Of a stretch of 64,000 nt of DNA, positions 2,937-18,909 are shown in pieces. Under the pieces are notes generated by a model. That model was not told the DNA's origin, did not search any database, and was given only the letters and a program-made list of their open reading frames with translations. This DNA comes from Corynebacterium sp. KPL1814 (GTDB taxonomy: Bacteria; Actinomycetota; Actinomycetes; Mycobacteriales; Mycobacteriaceae). The translations under genes and the position numbers were made by a program. Positions within the stretch are counted from its first letter, which is position 1, and the number at the start of each line of letters is the position of its first letter. The stretch is from positions 280,492 to 344,491 of the forward strand of contig NZ_KI515777.1 in NCBI RefSeq assembly GCF_000478175.1, written 5' to 3'.

Positions 2937-3044
2937 TTAGAACGGCACGTTAATTGGCAGGCCTGCTGCGAACTGGTTGTACGCCCAGTAAGCGTAGCCA
3001 ATGATCTCACCAATCAGGTCGAGAGCGTAGAGCAAATTAAACAA
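2937..3044 (-). CDS. Candidate 35-residue amphipathic peptide
   Basis: A TTG start lies six bases behind AAAGGAGAA (minus strand). It opens a frame of 35 codons beginning MFNLLYALDLIGEIIGYAYW and ending LPINVPF. The peptide is rich in Leu, Ile, Tyr and Ala with two acidic residues, and could form one amphipathic or membrane helix. It lies 61 bp behind the accD3 stop in the same direction. Corynebacteria make several tiny envelope peptides (PorA, PorH, ProtX) that annotation often misses, but I see no similarity to those and no Ser residue for mycoloylation. The evidence is the ribosome site and the position, not homology. Confidence 0.45.
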   Translation of the reverse strand: MFNLLYALDLIGEIIGYAYWAYNQFAAGLPINVPF

Positions 3045-3105
3045 GGGATTCTCCTTTAGCTGTCACGAAACTATTATTTAGGTATCGCAACAGCGCAGCA
3101 CAGCG

Positions 3106-4662
3106 TTACATCGGCGCAATATTGTGCTTTTTAGGCAGGTCATGCGCCGACTTCGTAGCCAATTGCCGCAGCGCCTGGCGCAAGGCAATGCGCGACTGAT
3201 TCGGTTGAATCATGGCATCGAGGTAGCCGCGTTCCGCTGCCACGTAGGGCGCAGTCATGGTCTCATCGTAGAAGTCCATGAACATCTTCTTGGTCATCTC
3301 GCGCTGCTCTGGGGTCTCGGCGGCCTCGAGCTGCTTGCCCGCGATCATGACCACGGCGGCGGCCGCGCCCATGACGGCGATCTGCGCGGTAGGCCACGCC
3401 AAGTTAATATCGCCGCTCAAGTTCTTCGACCCCATGACGGCATAGGCGCCGCCGTAGGCCTTGCGCACGATGAGCGAGACCTTCGGCACGGTCGCTTCCA
3501 CGACGGCGAAGGCAAACTTCGCACCGCGGTGAATCAGGCCCACCTTCTCCTGTTCCACGCCCGGCAGGTAGCCGGGCGTATCGACGACAAAGACGAGAGG
3601 GACATTGTAGGCATCGCAGATGCGGATGAAGCGCGCGCCCTTATCGGCGGCATCGGCATCGATGCAGCCGGCCAAATGCATAGGATTATTAGCCACAAAG
3701 CCCACCGTTTTGCCGTCGATGCGACCAAAGGCGGTGATCATATTCGGCGCGAAGTTTTCTTGGATTTCGATGAGCTCATCGTCATCGCCAAGCTGGGTGA
3801 GCAGATCCATCATGTCGTAGCCGGCATTAGTGTCATCCGGCATAAAGGAATTTAGGTCCTCGTCTTCGGTGATTTCGGCATCAGAAGGCGCAGGGAAGGT
3901 CGGCGACTCATCAAAGCAAGTCAACGGCAAATGATCCAAAATATCGCGGACCATGTCAAAGGCGTCTTCTTCAGAATCCACCACCGCGGAGACGTTGCCG
4001 TTGAGCTCCTGCTGGCGGGCGCCGCCGAGTTCAGCGGAGGTGACGTCTTCACCGGTAACCTCACGGATGACGTTGGGACCGGTGACATACATTTCCGCTT
4101 CCTCATCCACCGCGATGACAAAGTCAGTGGTCACCGGCGCGTAGACCGCGCCGCCGGCGGATTTACCCATCATGATGGAAATCTGCGGGCTGCGGCCAGA
4201 TAGCGGCAACTGGCGGCGGGCAATTTCGGAATACATGGCCAACGAGGTCACCGCATCTTGGATGCGGGCGCCACCGGAATCTTGGATGCCAATGACTGGG
4301 CAGCCAATCTTGATGGCCATATCCATGATCTCGGTGACCTTCTTGCCAAAGGTCACGCCCACGGAACCGCCGTAGACCGTCTTATCGTGGGCATAGATGC
4401 ACACGGGCCGGCCGGATACGCGGCCATAGCCTGTGACCACGCCATCGGAATAAATGGCTTCCGGGTCACCCGGGGTCTTACCCAAGGAGCCGGTTTCCAC
4501 GAAAGAACCTTCATCCAAGAGCTCGTTGATGCGTTGGCGAGGGGTGGTACGGCCCGCCTCGTCGCGGCGTGTGCGGGAGCGATCGCTGCCTGGATCTTGC
4601 GCCTCTTCTAGGCGCTTGCGCAGGTCAGCGAGTTTCTCAGCGGTTGTTTGCTTGGCCGCCAC
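3106..4662 (-). CDS. accD3: Acyl-CoA carboxylase beta subunit for mycolate synthesis
   Basis: This carboxyltransferase of 518 residues transfers CO2 from biotinylated AccBC to a long-chain acyl-CoA, giving the extender unit that Pks13 condenses. In Corynebacterium it works in a complex with AccD2, AccBC and AccE. The carboxyltransferase fold is complete: IQDSGGARIQDAV and GKSAGGAVYAP oxyanion-type loops in the N-terminal half, and VDTPGYLPGVEQE and KAYGGAYAVMGSK in the C-terminal half. The GTG start is backed by AGGAGAAGATAC. The start overlaps the pks13 end by 26 bases, so the two are translated from one message. Confidence 0.95.
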   Translation of the reverse strand: MAAKQTTAEKLADLRKRLEEAQDPGSDRSRTRRDEAGRTTPRQRINELLDEGSFVETGSLGKTPGDPEAIYSDGVVTGYGRVSGRPVCIYAHDKTVYGGSVGVTFGKKVTEIMDMAIKIGCPVIGIQDSGGARIQDAVTSLAMYSEIARRQLPLSGRSPQISIMMGKSAGGAVYAPVTTDFVIAVDEEAEMYVTGPNVIREVTGEDVTSAELGGARQQELNGNVSAVVDSEEDAFDMVRDILDHLPLTCFDESPTFPAPSDAEITEDEDLNSFMPDDTNAGYDMMDLLTQLGDDDELIEIQENFAPNMITAFGRIDGKTVGFVANNPMHLAGCIDADAADKGARFIRICDAYNVPLVFVVDTPGYLPGVEQEKVGLIHRGAKFAFAVVEATVPKVSLIVRKAYGGAYAVMGSKNLSGDINLAWPTAQIAVMGAAAAVVMIAGKQLEAAETPEQREMTKKMFMDFYDETMTAPYVAAERGYLDAMIQPNQSRIALRQALRQLATKSAHDLPKKHNIAPM

Positions 4663-7600
4663 GTATCTTCTCCTCGATCCAATCGTTCATATGCTTGCCC
4701 ACGGTGCCAATAGCTGGCTCGTCCGGCACTGCCAAGTGATCACCAGGCAGCTGCACAATTTCTAGATCCTTAACGATAGCGCCCCAGCCGCCATCCGGAT
4801 CAATCTCAGCGTAGCGCGGCTCCAGCTCCACCGCACCGTCATGCATCCGCTCCGAGCGGAAGAGCAACACGGCAACGCTGACCTCGGCCCAGCGGTGGAA
4901 GTCGATCTTGGCCAAAATCTGGTTATCCACGAAGGACGCGCGCTGGTGCTCCAAGACACCGGCGGATAGGCCGTGTTCGGACGCATCCGTCGTGGCCAAG
5001 AATTCCGCCAGCATGGTCATCAGGGCATCCTCGCCCATGGTTTCCAGCATCTCGTACGGCGGCTCGAAATCTAGGCCATAGGTCTTTTTGGCAAAAGCGG
5101 CGTAGCGCTCCCACCGCGCGCGGGTTTCTTCCGGCGTATCCGGTGCCGGGTGGGCAGGCTGCGTGGTATCGAGCAAGGCTATAAACGCGACCTCCACACT
5201 GTCCTCACCGCGCTTGCTGCGCTCGGCCAGCTGGTAAGCCACCTCATATGCCAAGGCGCCGCCAAAGGACCAACCACCGAGGACGATCTTGCGGCCGCGC
5301 GCATAACGAATAATGTCCTCGATATAAGCAGCGGCTCGCTCTTCTAAGGAGCCTTCAATCCTTTCGACGCCATAGACAGCGACATCCGCTGGCAGCCGGC
5401 GGGTCAGCGGCTGGTAGACCACCGTGGTTCCACCGGCCGGGTGAAACATGAATACGGCGGGACCATCGGCCTCGCGCAGGACGCGAATATTGCCTTCCAC
5501 CTCGGTCTCAAGGCCCTCGCGGACCAAGTCAGCCAAGGTTTCCAATACCTCAGCATCGAGGACCTGCTGCGGGGTGACATCGATATGGGCGCGGTCGCGC
5601 AGCCGCTCAGCAATCTGTGCGGCCATCTCCGCAGAGATTTCCGGAAGCGGCGAAGTCACTCCCGCCGGGGCCTTGCCGGTAATGCTTGCCCACGTGCCAA
5701 AGACCATGCGCTCAGAAGCATCGCGCGGGGCAACGCCCACGCCCTTCTCCGCTGCCTCCGCAGCCTCGCTTGCTGCGGGCGCTGCGGGCTCTGAAACCGG
5801 TGCAACATCGCCGCCGCTGTTATCACTGTTATCGACGTGTCCGCCGGCAACGGCCTCTTCGACCATGGTGATGACGTCTGCCAAGGAGGCATCGCGAAGC
5901 GCCTGCACTTGCAACGGTGGAATCTGGAAGTCATTTTCCACGCGGTTTTTAATGCGCATGCCCATCAAGGAATCCAGGCCCAGGTCAATCAGTGGCAGCT
6001 CGCGCGGCAGATCCGAGACGTCATAGCCCATGGATTCGGACACGATAAGCGCCAGGCGGTCCTCGACGGTCTCTTGCCGCGGATCCCAGCGCACCGCATC
6101 TACGCCCGCCTCATCGACAGCCGTTTCTGGGGTGGTGTTGCTCTCTGGCACCGCTGCAACCCCAGGGATCGCACCCGCACCCAAGTCCAGGCCGGAGGCA
6201 AAACCTTCCGCCAAGAGCTCAGTGCGCGTGTCCTGCACGCTATAGACGGCAATGGACATGCCGCCGATGGACGTGGTGACGACGGTGGTAATTTCCCCGT
6301 ACGGCGGGAGATCGCGGTGTTCCTCCGCGGCCACGATGTGTGCCCCAGGCTGTACCGCTTCTGCGGCGGCCTCCACGATGGCCAGCGCGGACGGGGCTTG
6401 GTCAGCGTTGGTGGAAAAGGCCACCTTGCCCTCCGGCAAGTTCACGCGGGTGCCGGGCAGCCCGGAGACCCCGGCCGAAGGCCGCGCATTGGTCCAAAAA
6501 CGCTGGCGGTTGAACTGCGTGTACGGTGCTTCCGCATGCGCGCCCAAGCCCAATACGGCGGCGAAATTAACCGGAGTTCCCGTTACGTAGAGCTTGCTCA
6601 ACAGATCCAACAAGGACTCGGTGGGGTCCACCTTGCGCTTTAAGCTATACAGCAATTGCGCATCGGCCTTGCCCACGGCAAACGCGGTAGACATAAGCCC
6701 CATGAGCGCCACCGGGTTGGGCGAAATCTCCACCAGCTGGGTGTGCCCTGCGGCAAAGGCCTGTTCCGTAGCGTCCTGCAAATACACCGGGTAGCGGGTC
6801 ATGCGCAGCCAGTAATCCTCATCGTGGACGGTGGTGCCGGGGCGGTAGACCTCACCCTTATCCACGGAGGAAAAGAGCGTTGTGTGCAGCGGGTGGGCCT
6901 CCATGCCGGCGATGGCCGCTTCGAGTTCGCCCAAAATCGGGTCGACGGCAGAGGTATGCCCCGCGGCCTTCACGTTGAGCGCGCGGGCGAATTTGCCTTC
7001 CCCATCGAGTTTTTCCACCAGCTCCAGTACCGCCTGGCGCGGGCCACCCACGGTGGTCATGCCGGGGCCGGTATAGACGGCTGGCTCAATGGATGCATCG
7101 AGGGCGGCAATGTCCTCGGCAGACAGCTCGACGACTGCCATGGCTCCTTGCTCGGCATCGCTTAGCGATGCCTCTCCCTCACCCATCAAGCGCGCGCGGT
7201 GGCAGGCAATAATCATCGCATCCTGCGCGGAAATGCCACCTGCGGCATAGGCCGCAGCGATTTCACCCATGGACATGCCCATAACGCCCGCCGGGCGCAC
7301 GCCGAAGGAGGCCAATAGGTCCGTCAACGCGATCTGGATGGCGGTGATGGCAACCTGCGCCGTTTCCGTGTCATAGGTTTGGGAATCGTCTTTAACGATG
7401 TCCAGGATGGACCAGCCCGACTCGAAATCCACGATGGCATCGAGTTCTTTCAGCCGCTCGCTAAACAGCGGTGAGAGGGCGATCATGTCCTTCGCCATCT
7501 TGCGGTGTTGCGAGCCAAAGCCGGAATACACGAAGACCGGCCCCTGCACCTGCGGGGAATCCGCCGCGGCGATGCCGACAGACACCTTGCCCTCGGCCAC

Positions 7601-9400
7601 CTGGCGCAGGCGCTTAATGGCCTCTTCAATGGAGCTGGCCATGACGACGGCGCGCGAGCGCGCGTGGTTGCGGCGCGCGACCGTGCGCGCTACATCGGCT
7701 AAGTCTGGTTGTTCTGCCTCTAAGAAATCCGCGAGCAGGCTCGCCGCACGCGCGCGGCGAGAGGGCAAGAGGCCAGAGACCGGCAACGCCACCGTGTCGG
7801 TGGATAGCTGCGGCTCGCTGGTGCGCGGGGTGCCCTGGTAATCCGTCAATACGACGTGGGCATTCGTGCCGCCAAAGCCAAAGCCCGATACGCCGGCCAC
7901 CTTTTTCCCGGAGTATTCCGGCCACTCGCGCGGATCTTCAACGACCTCGAGGCGCTCGCCCACGAAATCGATGTAGCGATTGGGCCCGGAGTAATTGATA
8001 TTTGCCGGGATAATATCGTGCCGCATGGCTTCGATGACCTTGATAAGGCCCACGACGCCCGCGGCGGATTCGGAGTGGCCAATATTGGTCTTGGCAGAGC
8101 CCAAGAGCACCGGCGATTCAATCCCGCGCCCAGCACCCAGCACGCGACCAAGCGCGCTGGCCTCAATGGGATCGCCCAAGATGGTGCCCGTACCGTGAGC
8201 CTCCACATAATCCACGTCCTCGGGCGCCACGCCCGCATCCGCGTAGGCGCGGCGCAGTACGTCTTCTTGCGCTTCTGGGTTAGGCGCGGTCAGGCCATTC
8301 GAGTGGCCATCGGAATTGACGGCAGAGCCCTTGAGGACGGCTAGGACTTCATCGCCATCGGCTTCTGCATCCTCCAGGCGCTTAAGTACCAGCACACCGG
8401 CGGCATCGGCACGCACGATGCCATCGGCGTCATCAGAAAAAGCATGAATGGCGCTGGTAGGAGAGGTCACGCCAAGCTCCGAAAAAGCGGTGGAGGCGTG
8501 CGGGGCGGCCAAGATATTCACGCCACCCGCCAGTGCTACATCGGCGGCACCGGTGCGCAGATCCTTGATGGCATGATCGACCGCAACCAAGGAAGACGAG
8601 CAAGCCGTATCCACATTGATGGAGGGGCCGCGGAAATCCAGGGCATAGGAAATGCGATTGGCAACGACTGCCGAGGAATTACCCGTGAGCGCATAAGGAT
8701 GCATCTCCGTGGGATCGGCGGTAATCAGCATGCCGTAATCATTATTGGTCGAGCCCATGTACACGCCCGTGTGCGTGCCGCGCAGCTCATTGGCGGGAAG
8801 GCCAGCGTTTTCCAGCGCGTGCCATACCAACTCGAGCAGGATGCGCTGCTGCGGATCCATATTCGCGGCCTCCAACGGCGACAGGCCGAAGAACTCCGCA
8901 TCAAAAGATGCAACATCGTCGATATAACCGCCATCGGTATTGTGCTGCGCGATCTTCTCGCTCATTACCGGGTCGGCGCTGTACTCAGACCACCGCCCCA
9001 CCGGCAGCGGACCAGTGCCCGCGCGCGATTCTGCGAGCATGGTCCAGAACTCCGGCACATCTTTAGCGCCTGGGAAACGACCGGACAAGCCGATAACCGC
9101 AATATCTGACCCCTGCGCGGCGCGAGTTGTGCGCTGCACACGCGGTACATCGTCGCGGCGCCCCGCAGGCTCAGTAAGCAGGCGATTGGCTAGGAGCTCA
9201 ATCGTGGGATACTCATACGCCACCGTGGCATCGAGCCGCGTGCCTAAAAGATTTTCTAATTCACCCGACAGCACCACGGCATCTCGAGAGGAAAGACCAT
9301 AGTTTTCCAGTGGGGTGGAATCTAAAATCTCTGTGGCGGCAACGCCCGTGGCCTGGGATACCCAGTCACGCAGCCATGCACGAAGTTGCTCGATGGTCAT
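4637..9400 (-). CDS. pks13: Polyketide synthase Pks13 (mycolic acid condensase)
   Basis: The protein has 1587 residues and all domains of the mycolate condensase, in order: an N-terminal acyl-carrier domain (GLSSRDAV, Ser38), a ketosynthase (VDTACSSS Cys267, EAHGTGT His402, NIGHSESAAG His442), an acyltransferase (GMSMGE, Ser710), a C-terminal carrier domain (GLDSLMG, Ser1144) and a thioesterase (GGWSFGG Ser1378, GDHLAVPD His1555). No catalytic residue is missing. It joins the meromycoloyl chain delivered by FadD32 to the carboxyacyl chain made with AccD3, and its thioesterase passes the product to trehalose. A sigma-D-like promoter lies at 9445-9471, and AGGAAAG precedes the ATG. Confidence 0.97.
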   Translation of the reverse strand: MTIEQLRAWLRDWVSQATGVAATEILDSTPLENYGLSSRDAVVLSGELENLLGTRLDATVAYEYPTIELLANRLLTEPAGRRDDVPRVQRTTRAAQGSDIAVIGLSGRFPGAKDVPEFWTMLAESRAGTGPLPVGRWSEYSADPVMSEKIAQHNTDGGYIDDVASFDAEFFGLSPLEAANMDPQQRILLELVWHALENAGLPANELRGTHTGVYMGSTNNDYGMLITADPTEMHPYALTGNSSAVVANRISYALDFRGPSINVDTACSSSLVAVDHAIKDLRTGAADVALAGGVNILAAPHASTAFSELGVTSPTSAIHAFSDDADGIVRADAAGVLVLKRLEDAEADGDEVLAVLKGSAVNSDGHSNGLTAPNPEAQEDVLRRAYADAGVAPEDVDYVEAHGTGTILGDPIEASALGRVLGAGRGIESPVLLGSAKTNIGHSESAAGVVGLIKVIEAMRHDIIPANINYSGPNRYIDFVGERLEVVEDPREWPEYSGKKVAGVSGFGFGGTNAHVVLTDYQGTPRTSEPQLSTDTVALPVSGLLPSRRARAASLLADFLEAEQPDLADVARTVARRNHARSRAVVMASSIEEAIKRLRQVAEGKVSVGIAAADSPQVQGPVFVYSGFGSQHRKMAKDMIALSPLFSERLKELDAIVDFESGWSILDIVKDDSQTYDTETAQVAITAIQIALTDLLASFGVRPAGVMGMSMGEIAAAYAAGGISAQDAMIIACHRARLMGEGEASLSDAEQGAMAVVELSAEDIAALDASIEPAVYTGPGMTTVGGPRQAVLELVEKLDGEGKFARALNVKAAGHTSAVDPILGELEAAIAGMEAHPLHTTLFSSVDKGEVYRPGTTVHDEDYWLRMTRYPVYLQDATEQAFAAGHTQLVEISPNPVALMGLMSTAFAVGKADAQLLYSLKRKVDPTESLLDLLSKLYVTGTPVNFAAVLGLGAHAEAPYTQFNRQRFWTNARPSAGVSGLPGTRVNLPEGKVAFSTNADQAPSALAIVEAAAEAVQPGAHIVAAEEHRDLPPYGEITTVVTTSIGGMSIAVYSVQDTRTELLAEGFASGLDLGAGAIPGVAAVPESNTTPETAVDEAGVDAVRWDPRQETVEDRLALIVSESMGYDVSDLPRELPLIDLGLDSLMGMRIKNRVENDFQIPPLQVQALRDASLADVITMVEEAVAGGHVDNSDNSGGDVAPVSEPAAPAASEAAEAAEKGVGVAPRDASERMVFGTWASITGKAPAGVTSPLPEISAEMAAQIAERLRDRAHIDVTPQQVLDAEVLETLADLVREGLETEVEGNIRVLREADGPAVFMFHPAGGTTVVYQPLTRRLPADVAVYGVERIEGSLEERAAAYIEDIIRYARGRKIVLGGWSFGGALAYEVAYQLAERSKRGEDSVEVAFIALLDTTQPAHPAPDTPEETRARWERYAAFAKKTYGLDFEPPYEMLETMGEDALMTMLAEFLATTDASEHGLSAGVLEHQRASFVDNQILAKIDFHRWAEVSVAVLLFRSERMHDGAVELEPRYAEIDPDGGWGAIVKDLEIVQLPGDHLAVPDEPAIGTVGKHMNDWIEEKIRGGQANNR

Positions 9401-9444: not shown

Positions 9445-9471
9445 ATCGCTCTATTTTGTCACCTCGTTAAC
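9445..9471 (-). promoter_or_regulatory. Sigma-D-type promoter of pks13-accD3
   Basis: On the minus strand GTTAACG is followed by 16 bases and CGAT. The C. glutamicum sigma-D consensus is GTAAC(A/G)-N16-(C)GAT. The start of transcription would fall about 35-40 bases before the pks13 ATG. The -35 half is also part of a perfect 13-bp palindrome, CGTTAACTTAACG. Confidence 0.7.
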
Positions 9472-9490
9472 TTAACGTCCGAATCCGGCT

Positions 9491-11236
9491 TTAAGCTTGG
9501 TAGTCCTTTTTTGCTGCGCGGCGGGCAATCTTGTGCGAGGAGGTGCGCTTAATTTCGCCCGGCGCCTTCCACACGATATCGCTCGGGGTAATGCCGTGAT
9601 TCTTTGTTACGGCCGTGCGAATGACCTCGCTGGCTGCGGCGTCACCGGACGGATCCGCGTTATCGGCGCGCTCCACCAAGAGCACCAAGGACTCTGAATT
9701 CTCGCCCTCCACGGCAAAGGCGGCGATGGAATCTGGGCGCACGTGCGCGGATGCCTCCTGCACGGTGCCTTCAATATCTTGCGGGTAATGATTACGCCCG
9801 GCGATGACGATGAGATCCTTGAGGCGCCCGGTGATATACAGCTCGTCCTCAATGATGGTGGCGAGATCGCCGGTGGCCATCCACCAGTCATCTTCTGGCA
9901 GGCCATCCTGGATGCGCTCGCCCAGGGTATTGCGGAAGGCAGCCGCGGTTTCTTCCGGGCGGTTGAGATAGCCAGTTGCCATATTTTGTCCATGCACCCA
10001 GATTTCACCGATGGTGCCCTCTGGGACCTCGGCCTTGGTTTCAGGATCTACGATGGCCAAGTGCTGGAACGAGACGCCCTGGCCATTCGAGGCGAAGGCC
10101 ACCGTTGCAGCGGACTTTTCTTCAATAACAGCGTGCCCGTCCGCCAGTTTTTCGCGGTTGAAGTGGGAAATGACGGGGCGTTTTTCACCCTGCGCGGTAG
10201 CAACGATGAGGGTTGCTTCCGCCAAACCATAGGAGGGACGCAGCACGGAACGCTCGATGCTGAAGGTATCGAGGAATTTCTGCACCGCTGGTTCCGTCAC
10301 CGGTTCGGAACCAATGAGGATGCCATCAACGTTGGAGAAATCCGCGTCCTTGCCGTAGCGCGCGGCCAATTCCAGGGCGAAATTGGGCACGGCGGTATAG
10401 GTATTCTTCTCTTCACCCGGCTGGCGGCTGATGCGCTCAACCCACCGGTTGGGATGTTGGATGAAGTCGCGCGGGGTCATCATGTCCAATTCGATGCCCA
10501 GAATCGTGGCGAATAACGCCAGGATGATGCCCATATCGTGGTGCATCGGCAGCCACGAGACCACGCGCGGTGGGAACTGTAGGTTTACGGCCCGAAAGAT
10601 CTGCAGCACATTCACCAAAATCGCGCGGTTGCTGAGCTCCACGCCGGCGGGGGTGCGGGTGGAACCAGAGGTGTACTGCAAGAAGGCGGTGGACTCCACT
10701 CCCTCTCCAGCGACCGGCTTCCACGACGCTGCCAAGGAGTCAGGCAGCGCATTGATGGAGATGACGCGCGGGCGCTCCCGCTCGGTGGAGAAATAGGCGC
10801 GCACCGCCGCAGCCGATACGCGGTTGGTCAACACGATGGGGGGCTCGCAGTCAGCAAAGACCGCTTTGAGGTGATCCGCATGCCCCGGCTCATTCGGATC
10901 ATAGAGCGGGATCGGGGTCATGCCCGCATACAGCGCACCCAAGAAACCAAAGAGGTACTCAGGGGAGTTGCCCGCCAGAATGGCCACGCGGGTGCCGGGT
11001 TCTGCAACTTGTTGCAGGCGCGCTGCCACCACTTTGATCCGGGTATTGATCTCTTGGCGGCTGAGCTCACGGACGGTGTCTTCCTCACCGTAGAGCCACT
11101 GGCGCATGACTATCTGCGAGGTATCCGCGTCTGCTTCGTAGAGGGTCTCGGTCAGGCCTGCCAAGGTGAGCTCTGTGGGGAGGGCGATATTGCCCTCGGC
11201 GTCAAAAAACTTCCCCATGAGTTGCTGTAAATCCAT
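9491..11236 (-). CDS. fadD32: Fatty-acyl-AMP ligase FadD32
   Basis: This 581-residue adenylating enzyme activates meromycolic acid as acyl-AMP and loads it on the N-terminal carrier domain of Pks13. The P-loop-like AMP motif YTSGSTRTPAGVELS is present. WMATGDLATI and GRLKDLIVIAGRNHYPQDIE mark the hinge and C-terminal lid. The family-specific insertion that makes FAALs act without CoA lies in this frame, and its length equals that of mycobacterial and corynebacterial orthologs. It precedes pks13 by 90 bp and has its own sigma-D-like promoter at 11275-11300. Confidence 0.95.
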   Translation of the reverse strand: MDLQQLMGKFFDAEGNIALPTELTLAGLTETLYEADADTSQIVMRQWLYGEEDTVRELSRQEINTRIKVVAARLQQVAEPGTRVAILAGNSPEYLFGFLGALYAGMTPIPLYDPNEPGHADHLKAVFADCEPPIVLTNRVSAAAVRAYFSTERERPRVISINALPDSLAASWKPVAGEGVESTAFLQYTSGSTRTPAGVELSNRAILVNVLQIFRAVNLQFPPRVVSWLPMHHDMGIILALFATILGIELDMMTPRDFIQHPNRWVERISRQPGEEKNTYTAVPNFALELAARYGKDADFSNVDGILIGSEPVTEPAVQKFLDTFSIERSVLRPSYGLAEATLIVATAQGEKRPVISHFNREKLADGHAVIEEKSAATVAFASNGQGVSFQHLAIVDPETKAEVPEGTIGEIWVHGQNMATGYLNRPEETAAAFRNTLGERIQDGLPEDDWWMATGDLATIIEDELYITGRLKDLIVIAGRNHYPQDIEGTVQEASAHVRPDSIAAFAVEGENSESLVLLVERADNADPSGDAAASEVIRTAVTKNHGITPSDIVWKAPGEIKRTSSHKIARRAAKKDYQA

Positions 11237-11274
11237 CGATTCTCCTTTAGTAAATGCTTTTGTCTTAAAAAATT

Positions 11275-11300
11275 ATCGATGCTGTAGCGCCTCATGTTAC
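11275..11300 (-). promoter_or_regulatory. Sigma-D-type promoter of fadD32
   Basis: The minus strand reads GTAACA, 16 bases, CGAT, an exact fit to the published C. glutamicum sigma-D consensus. The -35 element overlaps the stop codon of the upstream cutinase-like gene. The start lies 39 bases downstream, behind AAAGGAG. Confidence 0.8.
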
Positions 11301-12217
11301 ACGGCGTCAATGACCTGGTGTGCCCAATCCACAACCCACTGATTTGCGGTAGTCCCATCAATCACACCGTCGTTGCTGGCGTATTGCGCGTGCACTCCAT
11401 TGGCCCCGATCAAATCCTTGGCGCGTTCCAGACCATTGCCCACGCCGGTGGGTGCATCACACACGGAGTCATCGGGGGCACAAATCTGGAAGGTCCTATC
11501 CGCGAGCTCACCGAAGCCGTGCGGGCGCGCGCCGCGCATAGTCGCTCCGGGCACGATGGGCTGAACGAGTCCGGAGACAGGTTCCAAGGCAATCTCGGCA
11601 CCGATTCCGCCGAGCTCGTGTCCCGGATTTTGGCCCACGCCGTTTTCACGCCGGCCGTCTGCGATCAACGCCACGCCCGCGATATTCTCTGCGGGGATTG
11701 CGCCTTCGCCACCACCAATGTCATCGGCCACATCGCCGGCGATGACCGCGCCTTGAGAAAAACCGCTCAAAATAAACTTGGTCTGCGGGCAGCTTTCATG
11801 CATGCCGCGCAGCTCCTCATTCATCTTCGCAGTGCCCTCATTGCGGGAATCGTCGTAGCTCATTTCCTCCTGCGCATTGATATTTTTAAATTGCGCAGTA
11901 TAAGGAAGGGTCCACACCTTTACATCATCCCCGTAGGCCTCCTGCAACGGCTGCGTAATAGACAGCATGAACGAGCGCGGATTAGCAGAAGGGTTGAGGG
12001 GATCATCGTCGGCGGCGGATTCCCAGGTACCTGGCGCAGAAATGAACTCCACACTCGGGCACCACTCCGGCTGGGATTCCTCCGGTGGTGCCGCGGAGTC
12101 TGGCTCCTCGGGAGCGCTAGGTCCCGCCGAGTCCGAGTTCGTGAGGTAATGCGCCGCCCCCGCGCCGATAACGACGAGAAGGACGAGGACGGCAACGACG
12201 GTTATGATTTTTCGCAT
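11297..12217 (-). CDS. Cutinase-like envelope lipase (Rv3802c family)
   Basis: The protein has 306 residues. An N-terminal membrane anchor (ITVVAVLVLLVVIGAGA) and a Pro/Glu-rich linker lead into a cutinase fold. The nucleophile motif GFSQGAVIAG (Ser) is intact, QICAPDDSVCDA would supply the Asp, and a His follows in the NGVHAQYASNDG segment. Mycobacterial Rv3802c, encoded next to fadD32, is an essential phospholipase/thioesterase that influences mycolate levels. Position and architecture here agree with that ortholog. It follows the DUF732-like gene by 34 bp in the cop1 unit. Confidence 0.88.
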   Translation of the reverse strand: MRKIITVVAVLVLLVVIGAGAAHYLTNSDSAGPSAPEEPDSAAPPEESQPEWCPSVEFISAPGTWESAADDDPLNPSANPRSFMLSITQPLQEAYGDDVKVWTLPYTAQFKNINAQEEMSYDDSRNEGTAKMNEELRGMHESCPQTKFILSGFSQGAVIAGDVADDIGGGEGAIPAENIAGVALIADGRRENGVGQNPGHELGGIGAEIALEPVSGLVQPIVPGATMRGARPHGFGELADRTFQICAPDDSVCDAPTGVGNGLERAKDLIGANGVHAQYASNDGVIDGTTANQWVVDWAHQVIDAV

Positions 12218-12250
12218 GAACTAGTTGTACCCGGAAAACCTCAAAGAAAG

Positions 12251-12778
12251 CTAGCAAAGAGCTGAACGTGCATTGTCCTGGAGTAGCTTTGTGAGCTCGT
12301 CAAAGTCCATGTCAGTGCGTTGCTGCTCAATCAGTTGTCCGGCCACCGCAGGAATGGTGATGTCATCCTCGCCGCAAGCGCCCTGGCCGGCGCCGAGGAG
12401 CTGATCTTCTACCCCTTCGACATTCACGCCGGAATCCTTTAACGAATCCAAGTACGCAGTCTCTTCCTTGGGCAGCTGCGCGGAGGGGATCTCTGAAATC
12501 TCGCGCGCACCGCGATCCTCTGGGGAGTTCGCTGAACGAGACCCATTCGTCGGCTCCGCGGATTCCTTGGAACCGTCCTTGGGTTCGGATGGCTCCTGCG
12601 AGGAGGAAGCGCTGCTGGATGCGGACTCGCTACTACTCGTGGTCGATTCTTCGGAGGTTTTTTCGCGCGACAGCGGCGCCACCGAGGTGTCATTGCCGGA
12701 GTCACTATCCACGGTGGCAGAGTCACACCCTGCCAATCCGAGGCATAAGACCGCTCCTACGAGGGCTAATTTACGCAT
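12251..12778 (-). CDS. DUF732-like lipoprotein
   Basis: This 175-residue protein has a lipoprotein signal (MRKLALVGAVLCLGLAGCDS, lipobox LAGC). A low-complexity Ser/Glu/Asn region covers about residues 25-95. A C-terminal domain of about 75 residues carries two cysteines (GQGACGEDD and ARSALC) and the helical pattern ETAYLDSLKDSGVNV seen in DUF732 proteins. It starts two bases after the cop1 stop, so it is co-translated with it. Its function is unknown. The corresponding C. glutamicum locus also has a small secreted protein between cop1 and the cutinase gene. Confidence 0.75.
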   Translation of the reverse strand: MRKLALVGAVLCLGLAGCDSATVDSDSGNDTSVAPLSREKTSEESTTSSSESASSSASSSQEPSEPKDGSKESAEPTNGSRSANSPEDRGAREISEIPSAQLPKEETAYLDSLKDSGVNVEGVEDQLLGAGQGACGEDDITIPAVAGQLIEQQRTDMDFDELTKLLQDNARSALC

Positions 12779-12780
12779 GC

Positions 12781-14730
12781 TTACTTCTTTTCAGTCTGTA
12801 CGCGGCCCATGACTTCACTGATCGTCCCGTGCTGGAACTCCTGCTTCAATCCACCAGCGGCGATTTCGGAGTAATCAGAAGTGGGCCAGCCAAACTCGCC
12901 TTGCTCCCAGCCCTTCTTACCCCATTCATCCATAATGGCGCCCTTCAAAATGTAGTGCGCGCCGGATTCTGGGGACCAGTAGATGGAGCCATGTTCAAAC
13001 TCCTGGAAGAAGCCGCCCTCTACCTTCTTCTCACCGTCCGTGGGGAAGCCCAGTGGGGAGTCAGCGCCACCCATGTCCTTGTACTTTTTGCCAATGGCAC
13101 CAAAGGAGACCTGGTTCTTGCCGTCCGGGTTGCGGGTCAGAATGCCACCTTGGAATTCCTGGACAAGGCCATCGCCCACCTTCTTTACCGGGCCAGTCGG
13201 GAACTTCAGATCGCCGCCTTCGTAGCCCTTCTCGCCCCACTTCTTGTACATGTCACCGGTAATTTCCCAGGCGCCGGTCTCTGGGCTCCAGTAAATGGAA
13301 CCGTGTTCAAAACGCACGAGGCGTCCCTTGCCATCCATCGTCTTAGTTTCACCGGTCTTAGGGAAGCCCAACCAGGAGGTGGGGCCACCGATTTCCGCAT
13401 AGCGGGCGCCGATGCGGCCGTACAGGGCGTGCGCACCATTCTCCGGGGACCAGTACGCCGTACCGGTTTCGAAGTCTTGTGCCTTGCCCTTACCGGCAAC
13501 ATCATATTCGTTATTCAGGCAGGAACCGAGTATGCCTTCTTTGGTGGCCTTGGCGATATCGCCTTCGGTATTACAATCCGCACCGCGGTCAGCCTTGTCA
13601 AGGTCGAGGGCATCAGCAATGTGCGGCCATGCATTTTGCATCTCAAATTGCCAGTATTCCCAGCTGTGCACGCCGGAGGGCCGGAATTCCACTACTGGTT
13701 CCACATTGGCGCGCTTCGCGTAATCCACGAAGGTCTGGGTGGACATCCGAGAGATAACTTCCAGCCCCATGCCGGCCAGACTTGCCTGTCCCTTGGCCAC
13801 CGAGTCTTCCTGGCCAAAGTCGTCCTTGCCGTTACCAGCAGAGACATAGACCTGCATGTCCTTGAGGTTTTCGATGCCCAGCTTCGGATCGTGGTCGATC
13901 CAATCCTGCGAGCCGGGCTCGCCCCACATCTTGCGGGAATCGTAGCCGCCAGCATCGCGCTGCGCAGCCATGATGGCCTGTGGCATGCCACGGGTAGTCA
14001 TATCGAGGTAGCCGGAGAACGAACCCACGAAATCAAACAAGTGCGGGTTACGCTCCGCCAAGTTGACCGCTGCGGTACCGCCCATGGACAGCCCAGTCAC
14101 CGCGCGCTTCTGGTTGGAGCGGTATTCATGATCCAAAATTGGCACCAATTCCTTGGTAAGGAAAGTCTCCCACTTGTAGTTCTTTCCCGCATCCGGCTGC
14201 TGCCAGTCGGAGTAGAAGGAAGATTCGCCGCCCACCGGCATGATGAGGTTGACGTTGCGATCCGCATACTGGTTGAGGATATTGGTCTCAATGGTCCAGC
14301 CGGACTCGTCATCGCGGGCGCGCAGGCCATCAAGTGCCCATACCTCTGGGAACTTCTTCTCCGGCTGCGAATACCAGTCGCGCGCGAGCTGGATCTGCAC
14401 CTTCTGCTCGTGATCCGGCATGGCTGCGGACTGGATATAAACCATCAGGTGACGGTTGGACAGGTACTCCACACGGTTGATCTTTACGCCACCCGGCAGC
14501 CCCTCCACCTGTGGGTATTCGGTCTCCACTGGGGTACGGGCCGGCGGATCCTTAGGCGCAAAGTGATCAGACAGGCTGCTGCCGTTGCCTGGCTGAGCGG
14601 AGCTCATGTCACCAAGAGAGCTTTGGGCGGTGGCGTTGGGCAGCAGGGCAAGTCCAACGGCAATGGCGGTCGGCATGGCTGCTACCGCGAGCCCCTTACG
14701 GACCTTGCCCGGGGAAGTGTTTTTGCGCAT
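12781..14730 (-). CDS. cop1: Mycolyltransferase Cop1 (PS1/antigen 85 type) with LGFP repeats
   Basis: This secreted 649-residue corynomycolyl transferase moves mycolate from trehalose monomycolate to trehalose and arabinogalactan. It has an N-terminal signal peptide (basic start, hydrophobic core, cut near residue 35). The esterase domain has TGLSMGG with Ser215, and the GVHSWEYWQFEM segment carries the His. About four LGFP repeats follow (SWLGFPKTGE, LKFPTGPVKK, SPLGFPTDGEKK, FGWPTSDYSE), thought to bind the cell wall. Unlike CmtB it carries this wall-binding tail. The upstream region 14731-15013 ends at an IS3 insertion. Confidence 0.95.
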   Translation of the reverse strand: MRKNTSPGKVRKGLAVAAMPTAIAVGLALLPNATAQSSLGDMSSAQPGNGSSLSDHFAPKDPPARTPVETEYPQVEGLPGGVKINRVEYLSNRHLMVYIQSAAMPDHEQKVQIQLARDWYSQPEKKFPEVWALDGLRARDDESGWTIETNILNQYADRNVNLIMPVGGESSFYSDWQQPDAGKNYKWETFLTKELVPILDHEYRSNQKRAVTGLSMGGTAAVNLAERNPHLFDFVGSFSGYLDMTTRGMPQAIMAAQRDAGGYDSRKMWGEPGSQDWIDHDPKLGIENLKDMQVYVSAGNGKDDFGQEDSVAKGQASLAGMGLEVISRMSTQTFVDYAKRANVEPVVEFRPSGVHSWEYWQFEMQNAWPHIADALDLDKADRGADCNTEGDIAKATKEGILGSCLNNEYDVAGKGKAQDFETGTAYWSPENGAHALYGRIGARYAEIGGPTSWLGFPKTGETKTMDGKGRLVRFEHGSIYWSPETGAWEITGDMYKKWGEKGYEGGDLKFPTGPVKKVGDGLVQEFQGGILTRNPDGKNQVSFGAIGKKYKDMGGADSPLGFPTDGEKKVEGGFFQEFEHGSIYWSPESGAHYILKGAIMDEWGKKGWEQGEFGWPTSDYSEIAAGGLKQEFQHGTISEVMGRVQTEKK

Positions 14731-15012
14731 AGGTAAACGTCCTTGAAGATTTACCGCGGCCGCATTCCGAAGGTTCCCCTCCTCCGGACTGCTACCTGCG
14801 GCGTGAGCTGTCTATTGTGCGCTTAAGTTTAAGTTGAACTTGAAGCTTTGGAAAGGCTGACACGCCGTGCAAAGTTATATCACCATTTATCTCGATGCAG
14901 AGGCTGTCCCCCGGAATCGCCCAATAAGCAATCTCCCAGCTTAACCACAGACTGGACTCTCACCAAGAAACCACTAAGATAACCACAGCATGCATGAGGT
15001 TACCCTCGTTTA
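14731..15012. promoter_or_regulatory. cop1 upstream region, AT-rich dyad, bounded by an IS
   Basis: These 282 bases hold the cop1 leader. An AT-rich segment at about 14820-14846 contains tandem and inverted AAGTT units (TTAAGTTTAAGTTGAACTTG). A GGAGGAGGGG purine run lies about 40 bases before the start codon. I could not find the GTAAC-N16-CGAT pattern that marks fadD32, pks13 and cmtB. An IS3 element begins at about 15014, so distal control sequences may have been separated from the gene. Confidence 0.4.
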
Positions 15013-15054
15013 GTGGACACCCTATTTGTGCGGATTTTGTGTCCGTAAGAGAGG

Positions 15055-15372
15055 ATGTTCATTGTGAGTCAACAACGCCAGAAATACACGCCGGAGTACC
15101 GGCGTGAAGCCGCAAACCTAGTAATCGAGTCAGAACGCCCGATTGCTCATGTAGCGAAAGAAATTGGTGTCGCACCTGGCCTTTTAGGTCGGTGGGTGAA
15201 AAATGAGCGTCAACGCCGAGGATCCTCTGATGGGCTAAGCGAGGCTGATCTTCGTGCTGAGAACGCTCGTCTGCGTCGTGAGCTGGCAGAAGCCAAGATG
15301 GATAACGAGTTTTTGTCAAAAGCGACAGCCTTCTTCGCCGCAAAGCAACGCGATCAGAAAAGTTCGAATTAA
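15055..15372 (+). CDS. IS3-family transposase OrfA
   Basis: This protein of up to 105 residues (a GTG three codons in is an alternative start) has a helix-turn-helix (YTPEYRREAANLVIES ... VAKEIGVAPGLLGRWVKNE) and a C-terminal coiled coil (LRAENARLRRELAEAKMDNEFLSKATAFFA). GAGAGG lies just upstream. Its stop overlaps the orfB start as TAATG, which would couple translation. Confidence 0.92.
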   Translation: MFIVSQQRQKYTPEYRREAANLVIESERPIAHVAKEIGVAPGLLGRWVKNERQRRGSSDGLSEADLRAENARLRRELAEAKMDNEFLSKATAFFAAKQRDQKSSN

Positions 15373-16272
15373 TGCAGCAGGAGAAGGCGAATTTCAGTAT
15401 CAAGCGCATGGCACGCCTTTTGAAGGTATCTCGGTCTGGATACTACAAATGGGCCCATATGCAGCAGCAACGCTTATCCGGTAAGGATGATCGTGCAGCA
15501 TTTTACGATGATGTTGATCGCAAGATTCATCAGATCTGGAAAAGACTCCAACGAGGTCTACGGTGCCCCGCGAATCACCGCAGAACTAGGTGAGCGCTAC
15601 CAGATTGTTCTTAACCGCAAGACTGTGGCTAAGCGGATGCGCCTGATGGGAATTGAAGGAATTTCACCGCGTGCCTTCGTCCCAGCGACAACGATTCAAT
15701 CTAAACGTAAGTCGAGTCTTCCTGACCTGGTAAAGCGCATGTTTGATACCGGCGAGCTCAATCGAGTATGGATGTCAGACATTACCTACCTGCGAACCGG
15801 CGAGGGTTGGTTGTACTTATGCGCAGTTCGCGATGGTCATTCCCGCAGGGTGCTGGGCTGGGCTATGGATAGCGTGCAAGATACATTCCTGGTCGAACGA
15901 GCACTGCGGATGGCACATACACTGCGTGGTGACGTTCCTGACGGGCTGGTGTTTCACGCCGACCGGGGAACACAATTTACCAGCGAGCAGCTCTGGGAGG
16001 TGTGCCGCAACCTAGGTGTTGCTCAGTCTGTGGGGCGTACTGGGGTGTGTTTCGATAATGCGATGGCTGAGTCGTTCTGGTCGACGCTTAAGACCGAGTT
16101 CTACGACCGGAAGCGCTGGCCAACCCGCGATGCTGCGCGTCAGGCCGTTGCCTACTGGATTGAAGCCGTCTACAACCGTCGGCGCCGGCACTCCGCACTC
16201 GGGATGGTCAGCCCCGTCGATTTCGAGAACCACACCAGCCTAACCACCAGCAGAAAAGAAATAGCTGCCTAA
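15372..16272 (+). pseudogene. IS3-family transposase OrfB, frameshifted
   Basis: The first frame gives MQQEKANFSIKRMARLLKVS ... DVDRKIHQIWK and is then lost. The frame that continues gives KDSNEVYGAPRITAEL through to the end, with the rve catalytic core intact: WMSDITYL (Asp), FHADRGTQFTS (Asp) and DNAMAESFWSTLKTE (Glu). The two join if one A is removed from the AAAA run at about 15539-15542. This is unlike the programmed frameshift of IS3, which sits at the orfA/orfB border, so it is most likely a mutation or a read error. Confidence 0.85.
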
Positions 16273-16365
16273 CCACTAGGTAGCTCCACTACGTGTCCAC
16301 GATTTGCGGGCAACCCCATGCACAAAAGTGCACCCTGTAAACATCCCCTACCCAAAGCGAAAGAT

Positions 16366-17190
16366 ATGAAAAACATAAAGACCAAAATCACCGCCGGACT
16401 CATCGCCCTCACCACAAGCCTCACCATGGCCCAGACTGCAAATGCGGACCAAGGCAAGGAAATGGTCACCTTCGGCGATTCCTTCACCGCCAACGGCGGC
16501 GCACCAGGAGACCGAGGATCAGCCTCTCCATATAAGCGCCCCTTCCACCCCTGCTTCAACGACAAACACAACTGGGCGCACCAAACCGCCAACAACCTCG
16601 ACCACAACCTCGCCGACTACTCCTGCAACGGAACCAGCGTCTGGATCAACCAATACGTCGACGACGCCATCGAAAAAGGCAACATCGGCCAAGACACCAA
16701 AGAAGTAGTGTTCATGTACGGCGGTCTCCAGCAAGGAACCTACTTCGATGCCCTAGCCAACGCCACCCTCCCCGACGTTCCCAAAGCCTCCACCTACCGC
16801 GGACTACTAGACTTCCAATTCAACAAAATTCGTAAAGCCGCACCCAACGCCCGCATCACCATGGTCAATTACGTCCCAATGACCGTCAACGACACCCTGT
16901 GCGTTGTAAACCACGACCAGCTGCAGCTCCCAGTAACTATCCCGGGCGCAACAATCGCAGAAGACGAATTCAACCGCGAAATCGGACGCGCAGCACACGA
17001 CCTCGGAGTCAACTTCATCAACCTCCACGACCAAGCAAAGACCCACGACCCCTGCCAACCAGACACCAACCAGCGATGGGCCACGCTCGTGCAGACCCCA
17101 ACCGCCCCATCCGTCATGCCACTACACCCAACAGACGTAGGACACGACGGAATGACCCAAATCATTACCCGAGAACTCCAAAACCACTAA
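16366..17190 (+). CDS. Secreted SGNH/GDSL-type hydrolase
   Basis: The mature part follows a signal peptide (MKNIKTKITAGLIALTTSLT, cut after ANA). Block I is VTFGDSFTANGG with the nucleophile Ser. Block V is LHPTDVGHDGM, with the His of the catalytic pair. Six cysteines could form disulfides, as in secreted actinobacterial SGNH lipases. The start at 16366 is chosen for the signal peptide. An in-frame ATG at 16318 directly abuts the IS end. Codons are strongly C/A-biased (AAC, CCA, GAC), unlike the neighbours, and IS material lies on both sides, which suggests import. The substrate is unknown; esterified lipids are likely. Confidence 0.8.
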   Translation: MKNIKTKITAGLIALTTSLTMAQTANADQGKEMVTFGDSFTANGGAPGDRGSASPYKRPFHPCFNDKHNWAHQTANNLDHNLADYSCNGTSVWINQYVDDAIEKGNIGQDTKEVVFMYGGLQQGTYFDALANATLPDVPKASTYRGLLDFQFNKIRKAAPNARITMVNYVPMTVNDTLCVVNHDQLQLPVTIPGATIAEDEFNREIGRAAHDLGVNFINLHDQAKTHDPCQPDTNQRWATLVQTPTAPSVMPLHPTDVGHDGMTQIITRELQNH

Positions 17191-17278
17191 CCAAAGCACG
17201 AACCCGCAACACCACCGAAAACGCCATGAACTAGTCCCCAAGAGTTAGACGGGTTTAATTCAAGAAGGTTTGGGGAGC

Positions 17279-17317
17279 AAGGGCCTGACTCCGATATTGC
17301 ATCGGGGTCAGGCCCTT
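17279..17317. repeat. GGGCCTGAC dyad at an IS scar
   Basis: The arms AAGGGCCTGACTCCGAT and ATCGGGGTCAGGCCCTT pair with one G-T wobble around a five-base loop. The dyad sits directly behind the stop of the IS3 relic on the minus strand. It belongs to the same motif family as the dyads at 47503-47547 and 47917-47957. Confidence 0.7.
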
Positions 17318-17320
17318 AAG

Positions 17321-17705
17321 TCATTGTTGGGTGCGTTCGGTGTTGTACCACTGGATGTAATCTTCGATCGCCTGGGTGAACTCCTCGACGGTGCTGAAGT
17401 CTTCTCCGTGGTATGTCTCGCTTTTCAGGTGACCGAAAGCGTTCTCTATTACTGCGTTGTCGTAGCAGTTGGCTGTACGCGACATCGACTGAACGCCGCC
17501 GTTGTCGTGGATCAATGTCCGCCAGGTTGAATGCTGGTATTGGAAGCCTTCATCTGTATTTTTCAGCTAGGCATTTTCGGCCGGCAACAGTTCGTTTTTG
17601 CGACGCTGTTTGTCTCCTTCAGTAAGCCCCTCCGGCTTGGTGCCCCTGCCCTGTTCGAAACGCTCCACCATTTGCTCGCGCTGCGTTTCACTTAGCGAAC
17701 TTCAT
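17321..17705 (-). pseudogene. IS3-family relic with internal deletion
   Basis: The minus strand first reads like an OrfA (SETQREQMVERFEQGRGTKP, then KQRRKNELLPAENA and a stop at the next codon). Without changing frame it continues as the end of an OrfB: LKNTDEGFQYQHSTWRTLI, then SMSRTANCYDNAVIENAFGH with the catalytic Glu and YIQWYNTERTQQ at the end. About 250 codons between the OrfA coiled coil and the last catalytic block are gone. The element is inactive. Confidence 0.8.
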
Positions 17706-17720
17706 AGTCCCAAAGAAAAA

Positions 17721-17770
17721 TGCTCCCCACTAGTTGGTAGCTGATTTCTCAGTCCAACTACTGGGGAGCA
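17721..17770 (-). terminator. Intrinsic terminator of cmtB
   Basis: Arms of 17 bases (TGCTCCCCAGTAGTTGG and its partner, one mismatch) enclose a 16-base loop. On the minus strand they are followed by TTTTTCTTT, and they lie 35 bases behind the cmtB stop. Confidence 0.8.
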
Positions 17771-17805
17771 GTTCAAACGGCGCGGGGATAGTCCGTTAGT
17801 GAGCC

Positions 17806-18840
17806 TTACCAGGCATTCAAAGCGTTGAGAACGCGTGGCTTGGAAGCATTGAGCTGGTAGTCCCATTGGTACCAGTTATGCAAGCCCTCGGCCGGGTAGC
17901 TCACCGTTGGGTTCAGACCCTGCAGTCGAGCGGCGCCTTCCCAAGCGCGGGTGGTCAGCTGAGAACCAACCTCCAGTGCGACACCCGGTGCTTGGAACTT
18001 CGGTGGGAGGGTTTCCTTATCCAATTGACCCGGCATACCGGATGCGGCTGAAATATAAACATCGGTACCACCATCGCGCAGCTGCGGAATCAGCATGAGC
18101 GGGTCATTCTGGAAACGCCTTGGGTTAAATAGGGAACCGTACATGGCGTTGACATTGAACCCGCCTACATCCAGCATGGCCAAACGAAGGACAGTCTGGG
18201 CACCTGGAACCGTCATAGTCAAGTAACCAGAGTAGGACAGTACCTGCTTGAACTGGTCAGTGTGCTTAGCAGCCAAAGTCATGGCGGAACCGGCACCCAT
18301 GGAGAGGCCAGCGATCGCATTGTTGTTGCGGGCCACGCCAAAGTTCTGCTCGAGGTAGGCAGGAAGCTCCTGGGTAAGGAAGGTCTCCCACTTGTAGTTA
18401 ACCGGATCGTTCGGATCATACTTGCCCGGTGCCTGCCAGTCGGCATAGAAAGAAGACTCGCCACCTGCCGGCATCACGAGGGTGAGGTTGCTGTCCGAGT
18501 AGGTCTTTGCGGCATTAACCTCGCTATGCGGGCTAACCCAGCCGCTGGTTGCGTAGGTAGCGCGCATGCCATCCAATAGGTAGAAACCAGCGTTGCCGCC
18601 ATTCTTTGCGGACTGAATCTGTACCGGGATATTACGGTTCATGGACGGGGACCAGACATCACAGCGCTGAACCCAAAATGCAACTGGGTCCCATTCACAG
18701 GTGCCAGTATTATCCGGACGCAGCCAATCGCGGTTTCCCGCGTGTGCCTGCTGCGTGCCGCCTGCCACTACGGCGAGGCCAAGCGCTACGGCCACCGCCA
18801 TGATGACCGATAGGACGCGTCCCCTCAAAGATGCAGTCAT
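17806..18840 (-). CDS. cmtB: Mycolyltransferase CmtB (antigen 85 type)
   Basis: This 344-residue secreted enzyme transfers corynomycolates between trehalose and the cell wall. A signal peptide (GRVLSVIMAVAVALGLAVVAG, cut near AHA) is followed by a single esterase domain. It has LVMPAGGESSFYADW, AGLSMGAGSAM with Ser180, and GLHNWYQWDYQL with the His. There are no LGFP repeats. The start is at MTASLRGR because GGAGGAGAAAG sits directly before it; an in-frame upstream start lacks a ribosome site. In other corynebacteria cmtB lies next to cop1; here 3 kb of mobile DNA lies between them. A sigma-D-like promoter is at 18883-18909. Confidence 0.93.
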   Translation of the reverse strand: MTASLRGRVLSVIMAVAVALGLAVVAGGTQQAHAGNRDWLRPDNTGTCEWDPVAFWVQRCDVWSPSMNRNIPVQIQSAKNGGNAGFYLLDGMRATYATSGWVSPHSEVNAAKTYSDSNLTLVMPAGGESSFYADWQAPGKYDPNDPVNYKWETFLTQELPAYLEQNFGVARNNNAIAGLSMGAGSAMTLAAKHTDQFKQVLSYSGYLTMTVPGAQTVLRLAMLDVGGFNVNAMYGSLFNPRRFQNDPLMLIPQLRDGGTDVYISAASGMPGQLDKETLPPKFQAPGVALEVGSQLTTRAWEGAARLQGLNPTVSYPAEGLHNWYQWDYQLNASKPRVLNALNAW

Positions 18841-18882
18841 CTTTCTCCTCCACAAAGTACTCAATTATTGTTCTTTGGCTTT

Positions 18883-18909
18883 ATCGCTGGGAACCTGTGA
18901 ATCGTTAAC
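18883..18909 (-). promoter_or_regulatory. Sigma-D-type promoter of cmtB
   Basis: GTTAACG, 16 bases, CGAT on the minus strand, followed by AAAG. The same arrangement and spacing occurs before pks13. It lies 43 bases before the cmtB start. Confidence 0.7.

Follow-up and report, generated by a model that had tools for sequence, protein, structure and literature searches.

In mycolate-bearing bacteria, stress on the envelope is handled by the sigma factor sigmaD, and the present work concerns sigmaD-type promoter sites, in particular their -35 element, in the mycolate gene block of Corynebacterium sp. KPL1814, which lies within a stretch of 64,000 nucleotides (contig NZ_KI515777.1, positions 280,492 to 344,491; hereafter the window). 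The closest described system is that of C. glutamicum: according to the accessible text of Dostalova et al. 2019 (PMC6338062), its sigmaD promoters combine a -35 element GTAAC[A/G] with a -10 element GAT, 11 of them being proven directly, including those of fadD2 (fadD32), cmt2 and rsdA, and pks is outside that list. The same text gives the rsdA promoter, PrsdA, as GTAAC-15-CTCGAT, kept in 37 of 38 species; otherwise the consensus was mostly not identified upstream of homologues in other species, being kept besides rsdA at cmt1 and cmt2 only. In C. glutamicum, overexpression of sigD raises pks (accessible part of PMC5508688), and damage to the envelope leads to proteolysis of RsdA and release of sigmaD (accessible part of PMC11175481).

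A deviating case is the Pcg0441 (lpd) promoter, GCTAACG, which, as the available portion of PMC11588781 reports, gave high activity with sigmaD and next to none with sigmaH. In the simulations described there, Arg175 bonds G-35 in PrsdA, and in Pcg0441, where position -35 is C, it contacts the non-template G-36 and the G opposite C-35. The sites analysed here are like the C. glutamicum promoters in their -10 GAT and the PrsdA spacing and, at fadD32 and at a fourth site of the window, in the -35 GTAAC[A/G]; two of the genes concerned, fadD2 and cmt2, are proven there. They differ in that pks is absent from the list of 11, in that conservation across species is given there for cmt1, cmt2 and rsdA only, and in that sites with a shifted G are frequent here.

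SigmaD-type sites in the window and across the genus

The original prediction had proposed a sigmaD signature shared by fadD32, pks13-accD3 and cmtB (cmt2). Indeed, all three strings are present on the minus strand (Table 1) with the same TAAC-CGAT spacing, which equals that of PrsdA (GTAACR-N16-CGAT); the distances to the start codon, predicted as 39–45 bases, measure 38 nt for fadD32, 44 nt for pks13 and 42 nt for cmt2 when counted from CGAT. These sites, as well as a fourth one absent from the prediction, carry the -10 CGAT (GAT) of the C. glutamicum sigmaD type. The -35 GTAAC[A/G] is present at fadD32 and at the fourth site, and pks13 and cmt2 show TTAACG in this register, the G being placed one base further out. 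Within the window the core TAACR-N16-CGAT matches five times, always on the minus strand and within the mycolate block, where chance would give 0.55, a count of five never arising in 100 shuffles; GTTAACG-N16-CGAT occurs twice, against 0.04 expected in shuffles. The fifth core match, inside pks13 (5807-5831, minus strand), is probably due to chance.

Over the whole 2.5-Mb genome the pattern itself is not rare: KTAACR-N16-CGAT shows no excess (16 matches) over the reversed pattern (19). The count alone therefore proves nothing, and it is the fixed spacing and the conservation, rather than rarity, that carry the proof. Of the 16 matches, four to five precede envelope genes and at most three precede unrelated ones. 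From their ORF (open reading frame) context, pks13, fadD32, cmt2 and rsdA each have one ahead of them, that of rsdA being within the sigD ORF; another, the fourth site, overlaps accD3 at its end and has a small ORF behind it; one lies about 25 nt upstream of a 6-phosphogluconolactonase gene, one 187 nt upstream of a translation-GTPase gene, and one (L014) at the end of an ORF, about 24 nt before an ORF of no known family. The remaining eight are within or against coding sequence. The upstream region of a third mycoloyltransferase gene of this genome (C3:347437) has no site before the start, and the cop1 gene of the window has no core site between -240 and +30.

The conservation of the sites was analysed in named Corynebacterium loci, namely the top 80 of 235 by FadD32 alignment, taking as upstream region the interval from -240 to +30. 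Both pks13 and cop1 were found in 79 of the loci, the cop1 region of L077 being excluded, and cmt2 was accepted in 74, loci with a cop1-like best match being set aside, which gives 311 regions (fadD32 80, pks13 79, cop1 78, cmt2 74). The core is present in 94 of these, at 17 of 80 fadD32, 44 of 79 pks13, 31 of 74 cmt2 and 2 of 78 cop1 genes. At N16 the 94 sites split into 41 GTAACR, 50 GHTAACR (G only one base out) and 3 HHTAACR, and any other spacer (11–15, 17–21) yields 0–2 matches per form; antisense matches number 0–1, with none at N16. Outside the upstream regions the loci hold 14 further core matches, 13 of them on the plus strand, and 10 of these 13 are sites located behind accD3.

The factor expected to read the sites appears to be encoded in the same genome, which has seven sigma genes by PF04542 (sigma-70 region 2). 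One of them (C5:136239-136808) holds the PrsdA signature GTAACAGAATGCGCGCCTTGCTCGAT inside its own coding sequence and is followed by a 253-codon ORF in the position of rsdA; the assignment of the two as putative SigD and RsdA rests on this signature and on position. PF16751 (RsdA_SigD_bd) gave no match in this genome nor in any of 14 control genomes, and the 253-codon ORF has no Pfam match. Among 101 genomes, SigD (E 1e-40) and FadD32 (E 1e-90) are each matched in 93 and absent from 8, five genomes being without both (Fisher 3.7e-5); at these thresholds G017 has FadD32 and no sigD, and G013 and G077 have sigD and no FadD32. In the best 30 of the 93 sigD loci, an rsdA-type site is present in 28 and the recognition helix string GAVRVAQHRA in all 30.

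Agreement with the PrsdA consensus and spacing, the identity of the genes, the presence of sigD in the genome and conservation at spacer 16 only make the sigmaD reading of the three sites well supported. We assign a probability of roughly 0.8 to their being sigmaD promoters with a -10 CGAT(A) and a -35 TAAC[AG], 16 nt apart, in which the G is usable at either of two adjacent positions.

Two proposed registers of the -35 element

The GTTAAC variant had been regarded as carrying an extra T that may mark a lineage-specific -35 form. The recurring variant is real; it is, however, neither an insertion nor specific to a lineage. GTTAAC, GCTAAC and GATAAC all occur at pks13 and cmt2 of many lineages, the base between the outer G and TAAC being T, C or A, and shifted sites make up 31 of the 44 sites at pks13 and 17 of the 31 at cmt2. 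An inserted T is ruled out by the constant distance between TAAC and CGAT: since the spacer is equal in both forms, TAAC is the anchor and it is the G that moves, so that GTTAAC is not GTAAC plus a T. A lineage-wide change in sigma specificity is likewise ruled out, as both registers are found in one genome and the recognition helix is unchanged in the best 30 of 93 sigD loci. In fact, the genome under study has shifted sites at pks13 and cmt2 and canonical ones at rsdA and fadD32, and with one sigD of unchanged helix a single protein would have to read both. The variant is an alternative position of the G at the level of the promoter.

The outer base is G in 50 of the 53 sites that lack a G directly before TAAC, as against 9 of the 41 that have one there (Fisher 1.1e-13); the background frequency of an outer G beside any HTAACR in the loci is 0.391. 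The difference persists when relatives are collapsed by FadD32 identity, the window included: 43/46 versus 6/33 at 97%, 24/27 versus 5/26 at 90%, 19/22 versus 5/22 at 80% (Fisher 4.8e-5) and 14/17 versus 5/20 at 75% (8.3e-4). In 61 whole genomes GHTAACR-N16-CGATA occurs 126 times against 66 at N13, a one-codon shift in the same frame which served as control for both forms, and HHTAACR 91 against 119 times (Fisher 1e-5, the related genomes not being independent); the value is 2e-5 after removal of five MtrA-like sites picked by eye. A quick FadD32 tree requires a minimum of four register changes at pks13 and of three at cmt2, and one clade has AGTAAC, GGTAAC, GATAAC and GCTAAC all before pks13. 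These variants suggest that the register may drift through a GG intermediate, a path drawn from the pks13 sites of that clade.

In the mechanism that we envisage, region 4 of sigmaD would need one G just upstream of TAAC, for which either adjacent position would serve. In GTAAC (fadD32, rsdA) this G stands directly before the T, in G[T/C/A]TAAC (pks13, cmt2) one base out, and the distance from TAAC to the -10 stays fixed. It is probably the conserved recognition-helix arginine (Arg175 in sigmaH numbering) that makes the contact, with G-35 in GTAAC and with G-36 in the shifted form, and we infer that G-36 is functional rather than tolerated. Cleavage of RsdA upon envelope damage would free sigmaD, which would raise together mycolate activation (fadD32), condensation (pks13-accD3) and transfer (cmt2), and rsdA, itself under sigmaD, would reset the response. 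We consider it somewhat probable that one G at -35 or -36 is obligatory before a fixed TAAC and is read by the same arginine, that registers drift via GG with no change in spacing or sigma factor, and that strict GTAAC searches undercount the regulon, above all at pks13-accD3; the gene for a peptide of about 35 residues behind accD3 may belong to it as well.

Pcg0441 is alike in its shifted register, GCTAACG, and in its dependence on sigmaD, and differs in its -10, GTT, and in being a single atypical case with distorted binding rather than a recurring form (accessible text of PMC11588781). The comparison across the genus suggests that a Pcg0441-like register is a common form, and we propose, in place of a single atypical case, a regular second -35 form. 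A literature search, in which most subscription papers and the sequences of the 11 proven promoters were outside reach, found no paper describing the GTTAAC/GCTAAC/GATAAC variant. Were one G readable in two registers, GTAAC-based predictions would cover the regulon only in part, and a two-register search would help to find members of the stress response missed by the strict one. A contact simulated in one promoter would then become a rule, and the sites would show how an ECF (extracytoplasmic function) promoter can drift with its function kept.

Alternative readings and points of weight

A number of readings other than sigmaD promoters with a movable G have been considered. In one of them, each RTAAC string would be half of a binding site for MtrA, a response regulator of the envelope, which would fit both the motif and an envelope-related regulon. 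The MtrA consensus of C. glutamicum, as given in the accessible text of PMC3353115, is however RTAACAAT-ttn-RTAACAAT, two direct copies repeating every 11 nt, so that both copies and no CGAT are required. A further RTAAC at +11 is found in 2 of 97 sites (the 94 above and the three of the window), both at cmt2 (L132, L139), and the sites before GDSL-lipase genes (C3:338177 in this genome, L202-L204) match the repeat by eye equally well. The other 95, including the three window sites, lack a second half at ±11, which rules out MtrA as a general explanation. Moreover, TTAAC and CTAAC conflict with a purine before TAAC, and a CGAT at exactly 16 nt is left unexplained, so that we regard this reading as very improbable. 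No more credit is due to another ECF sigma factor (sigmaH, sigmaE, sigmaM) as the reader of the GTTAAC sites: the genome does have its seven PF04542 genes, and sigmaH and sigmaD overlap at the same promoters in the available text of PMC6338062, but the sigmaH signature (GGAA[T/C] at -35, GTT at -10) is found at none of the three window sites, GTTAAC sites included, and the low activity of Pcg0441 with sigmaH as against sigmaD (PMC11588781, part seen) argues in the opposite direction. Chance matches, for which the genome-wide comparison with the reversed pattern speaks, have a next to negligible probability given the 94 of 311 regions at spacer 16, with at most two at any other spacer of 11–21 and none antisense at N16.

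A closer competitor, although still unlikely, accepts the sites as sigmaD promoters but attributes the retention of the outer G to something else, such as a further contact with RNA polymerase, an overlapping housekeeping promoter or base composition, and sees in it no substitute for G-35. Indeed, a G before HTAACR is frequent anyway (0.391), a TGnnAnAAT-like string, selected by eye as a pattern and perhaps a nested sigmaA -10, occurs within or close to the spacer in 21 of 45 pks13 sites, and genomes without sigD show the same genome-wide trend. Against this, where G-35 is present the outer G drops to 9/41 (5/22 after collapse), and being scarce there it tracks the loss of G-35.

Several observations weigh against sigmaD promoters with a G in either register. 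Transcription from the sites in this organism is predicted from the DNA. Strict sites are found in a minority of the fadD32 (17/80), cmt2 (31/74) and cop1 (2/78) regions and in 44/79 at pks13; C. macginleyi (L063) has a disrupted pks13 site, two of the best 30 of 93 sigD loci (L169, L170) are without the rsdA site, and three sites (L080, L083, L121) have a G at neither position. Of the four nearest named loci, three (L061, L062, L064) have GTAAT at fadD32; the fourth (L063) keeps GTAAC, and so does G006. The form GTAAT[AG]-N16-CGAT occurs in 13 of 80 fadD32 regions, and C and T may thus both be allowed at the fifth -35 position, as in the sigmaH consensus GGAA[T/C]. Conservation is in part a coding constraint, since a stop codon shares bases with the GTAA of fadD32, and the rsdA site is itself part of the sigD coding sequence. 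Among the 61 genomes, the five without a sigD match show a like trend (GHTAACR 9 at N16 versus 4 at N13, HHTAACR 5 versus 11); these five, too few, did not differ from the others in GHTAACR excess, and the genome-wide test alone therefore does not point to sigmaD. Finally, Pcg0441 has an unusual -10 (GTT) and is regarded as atypical by the authors of PMC11588781, who interpret the contact with G-36 as a distorted mode of binding.

The mycolate block, the small ORF behind accD3 and further sites

Gene identities in Table 1 were assigned by Pfam, with names following the original prediction and C. glutamicum. The order of the genes is the same in the 20 of the 80 named loci displayed. The nearest named species is C. 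macginleyi (92% FadD32 identity), other records reaching 97%; we take this genome to belong to the C. accolens group. At the end of the block lie two ORFs on the plus strand (127-1365 and 1655-1954) that are presumably transposases, as labelled by eye. In the nearest complete relative, a mycoloyltransferase gene is present in a second copy whose frame is broken (G006:C1:283901-284203, L225).

Table 1. Positions in the window of the mycolate genes and putative sigmaD-type sites
Feature	Position	Strand	Remarks
35-codon ORF, unannotated	2937..3044	-	TTG start, AAAGGAG before start; family MLSSxLDLxGDIINYIVW...
Fourth sigmaD-type site	3084..3109	-	GTAACG-N16-CGAT(A); overlaps accD3 stop codon; absent from the original prediction
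accD3	3106..4662	-	acyl-CoA carboxylase carboxyltransferase
pks13	4637..9400	-	mycolate condensase
SigmaD-type promoter of pks13-accD3	9445..9471	-	GTTAACG-N16-CGAT, shifted register
fadD32 (fadD2 in C. glutamicum)	9491..11236	-	fatty-acid AMP ligase
SigmaD-type promoter of fadD32	11275..11300	-	GTAACA-N16-CGAT, canonical register
cop1-type gene	12781..14730	-	mycoloyltransferase with LGFP repeats
cmtB (cmt2)	17806..18840	-	mycoloyltransferase (Esterase, PF00756)
SigmaD-type promoter of cmtB (cmt2)	18883..18909	-	GTTAACG-N16-CGAT, shifted register

Both at the fadD32 site and at the fourth site, the TAA within GTAAC doubles as the stop codon of the upstream gene, which in the case of fadD32 belongs to the cutinase family. 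The fourth site is 39 nt upstream of the 35-codon ORF. A like ORF of 28-39 codons follows accD3 in 44 of 77 regions, the window included, as found with a search pattern built from members already seen, and a core site precedes the small ORF in 11 of the 77. Substitutions in this family are biased to the third codon position (497 versus 261 and 141), and three members gave no Pfam or NCBIfam match. The product is possibly a small mycomembrane peptide or porin; the known small porins of the genus are located elsewhere, between groEL2 and ppk2 (accessible parts of PMC3792995 and PMC5944148).

In eight loci (L113, L117, L118, L120, L123, L125, L126, L130) CGAT lies just 13 nt before the pks13 start and no clear Shine-Dalgarno sequence is seen by eye in these upstream regions, from which a sigmaD transcript of pks13 could be nearly leaderless. 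A GATAAC-N16-CGATATCG element stands before a GDSL lipase/acylhydrolase gene of this genome (C3:338177; L201:478-505) and is conserved in L202-L204; by eye, it fits the MtrA direct repeat with its 11-nt period as well as it fits sigmaD. In other species, shifted sites precede mycoloyltransferase genes, identified by Pfam in L205 and L220 and by the same flank in L206.

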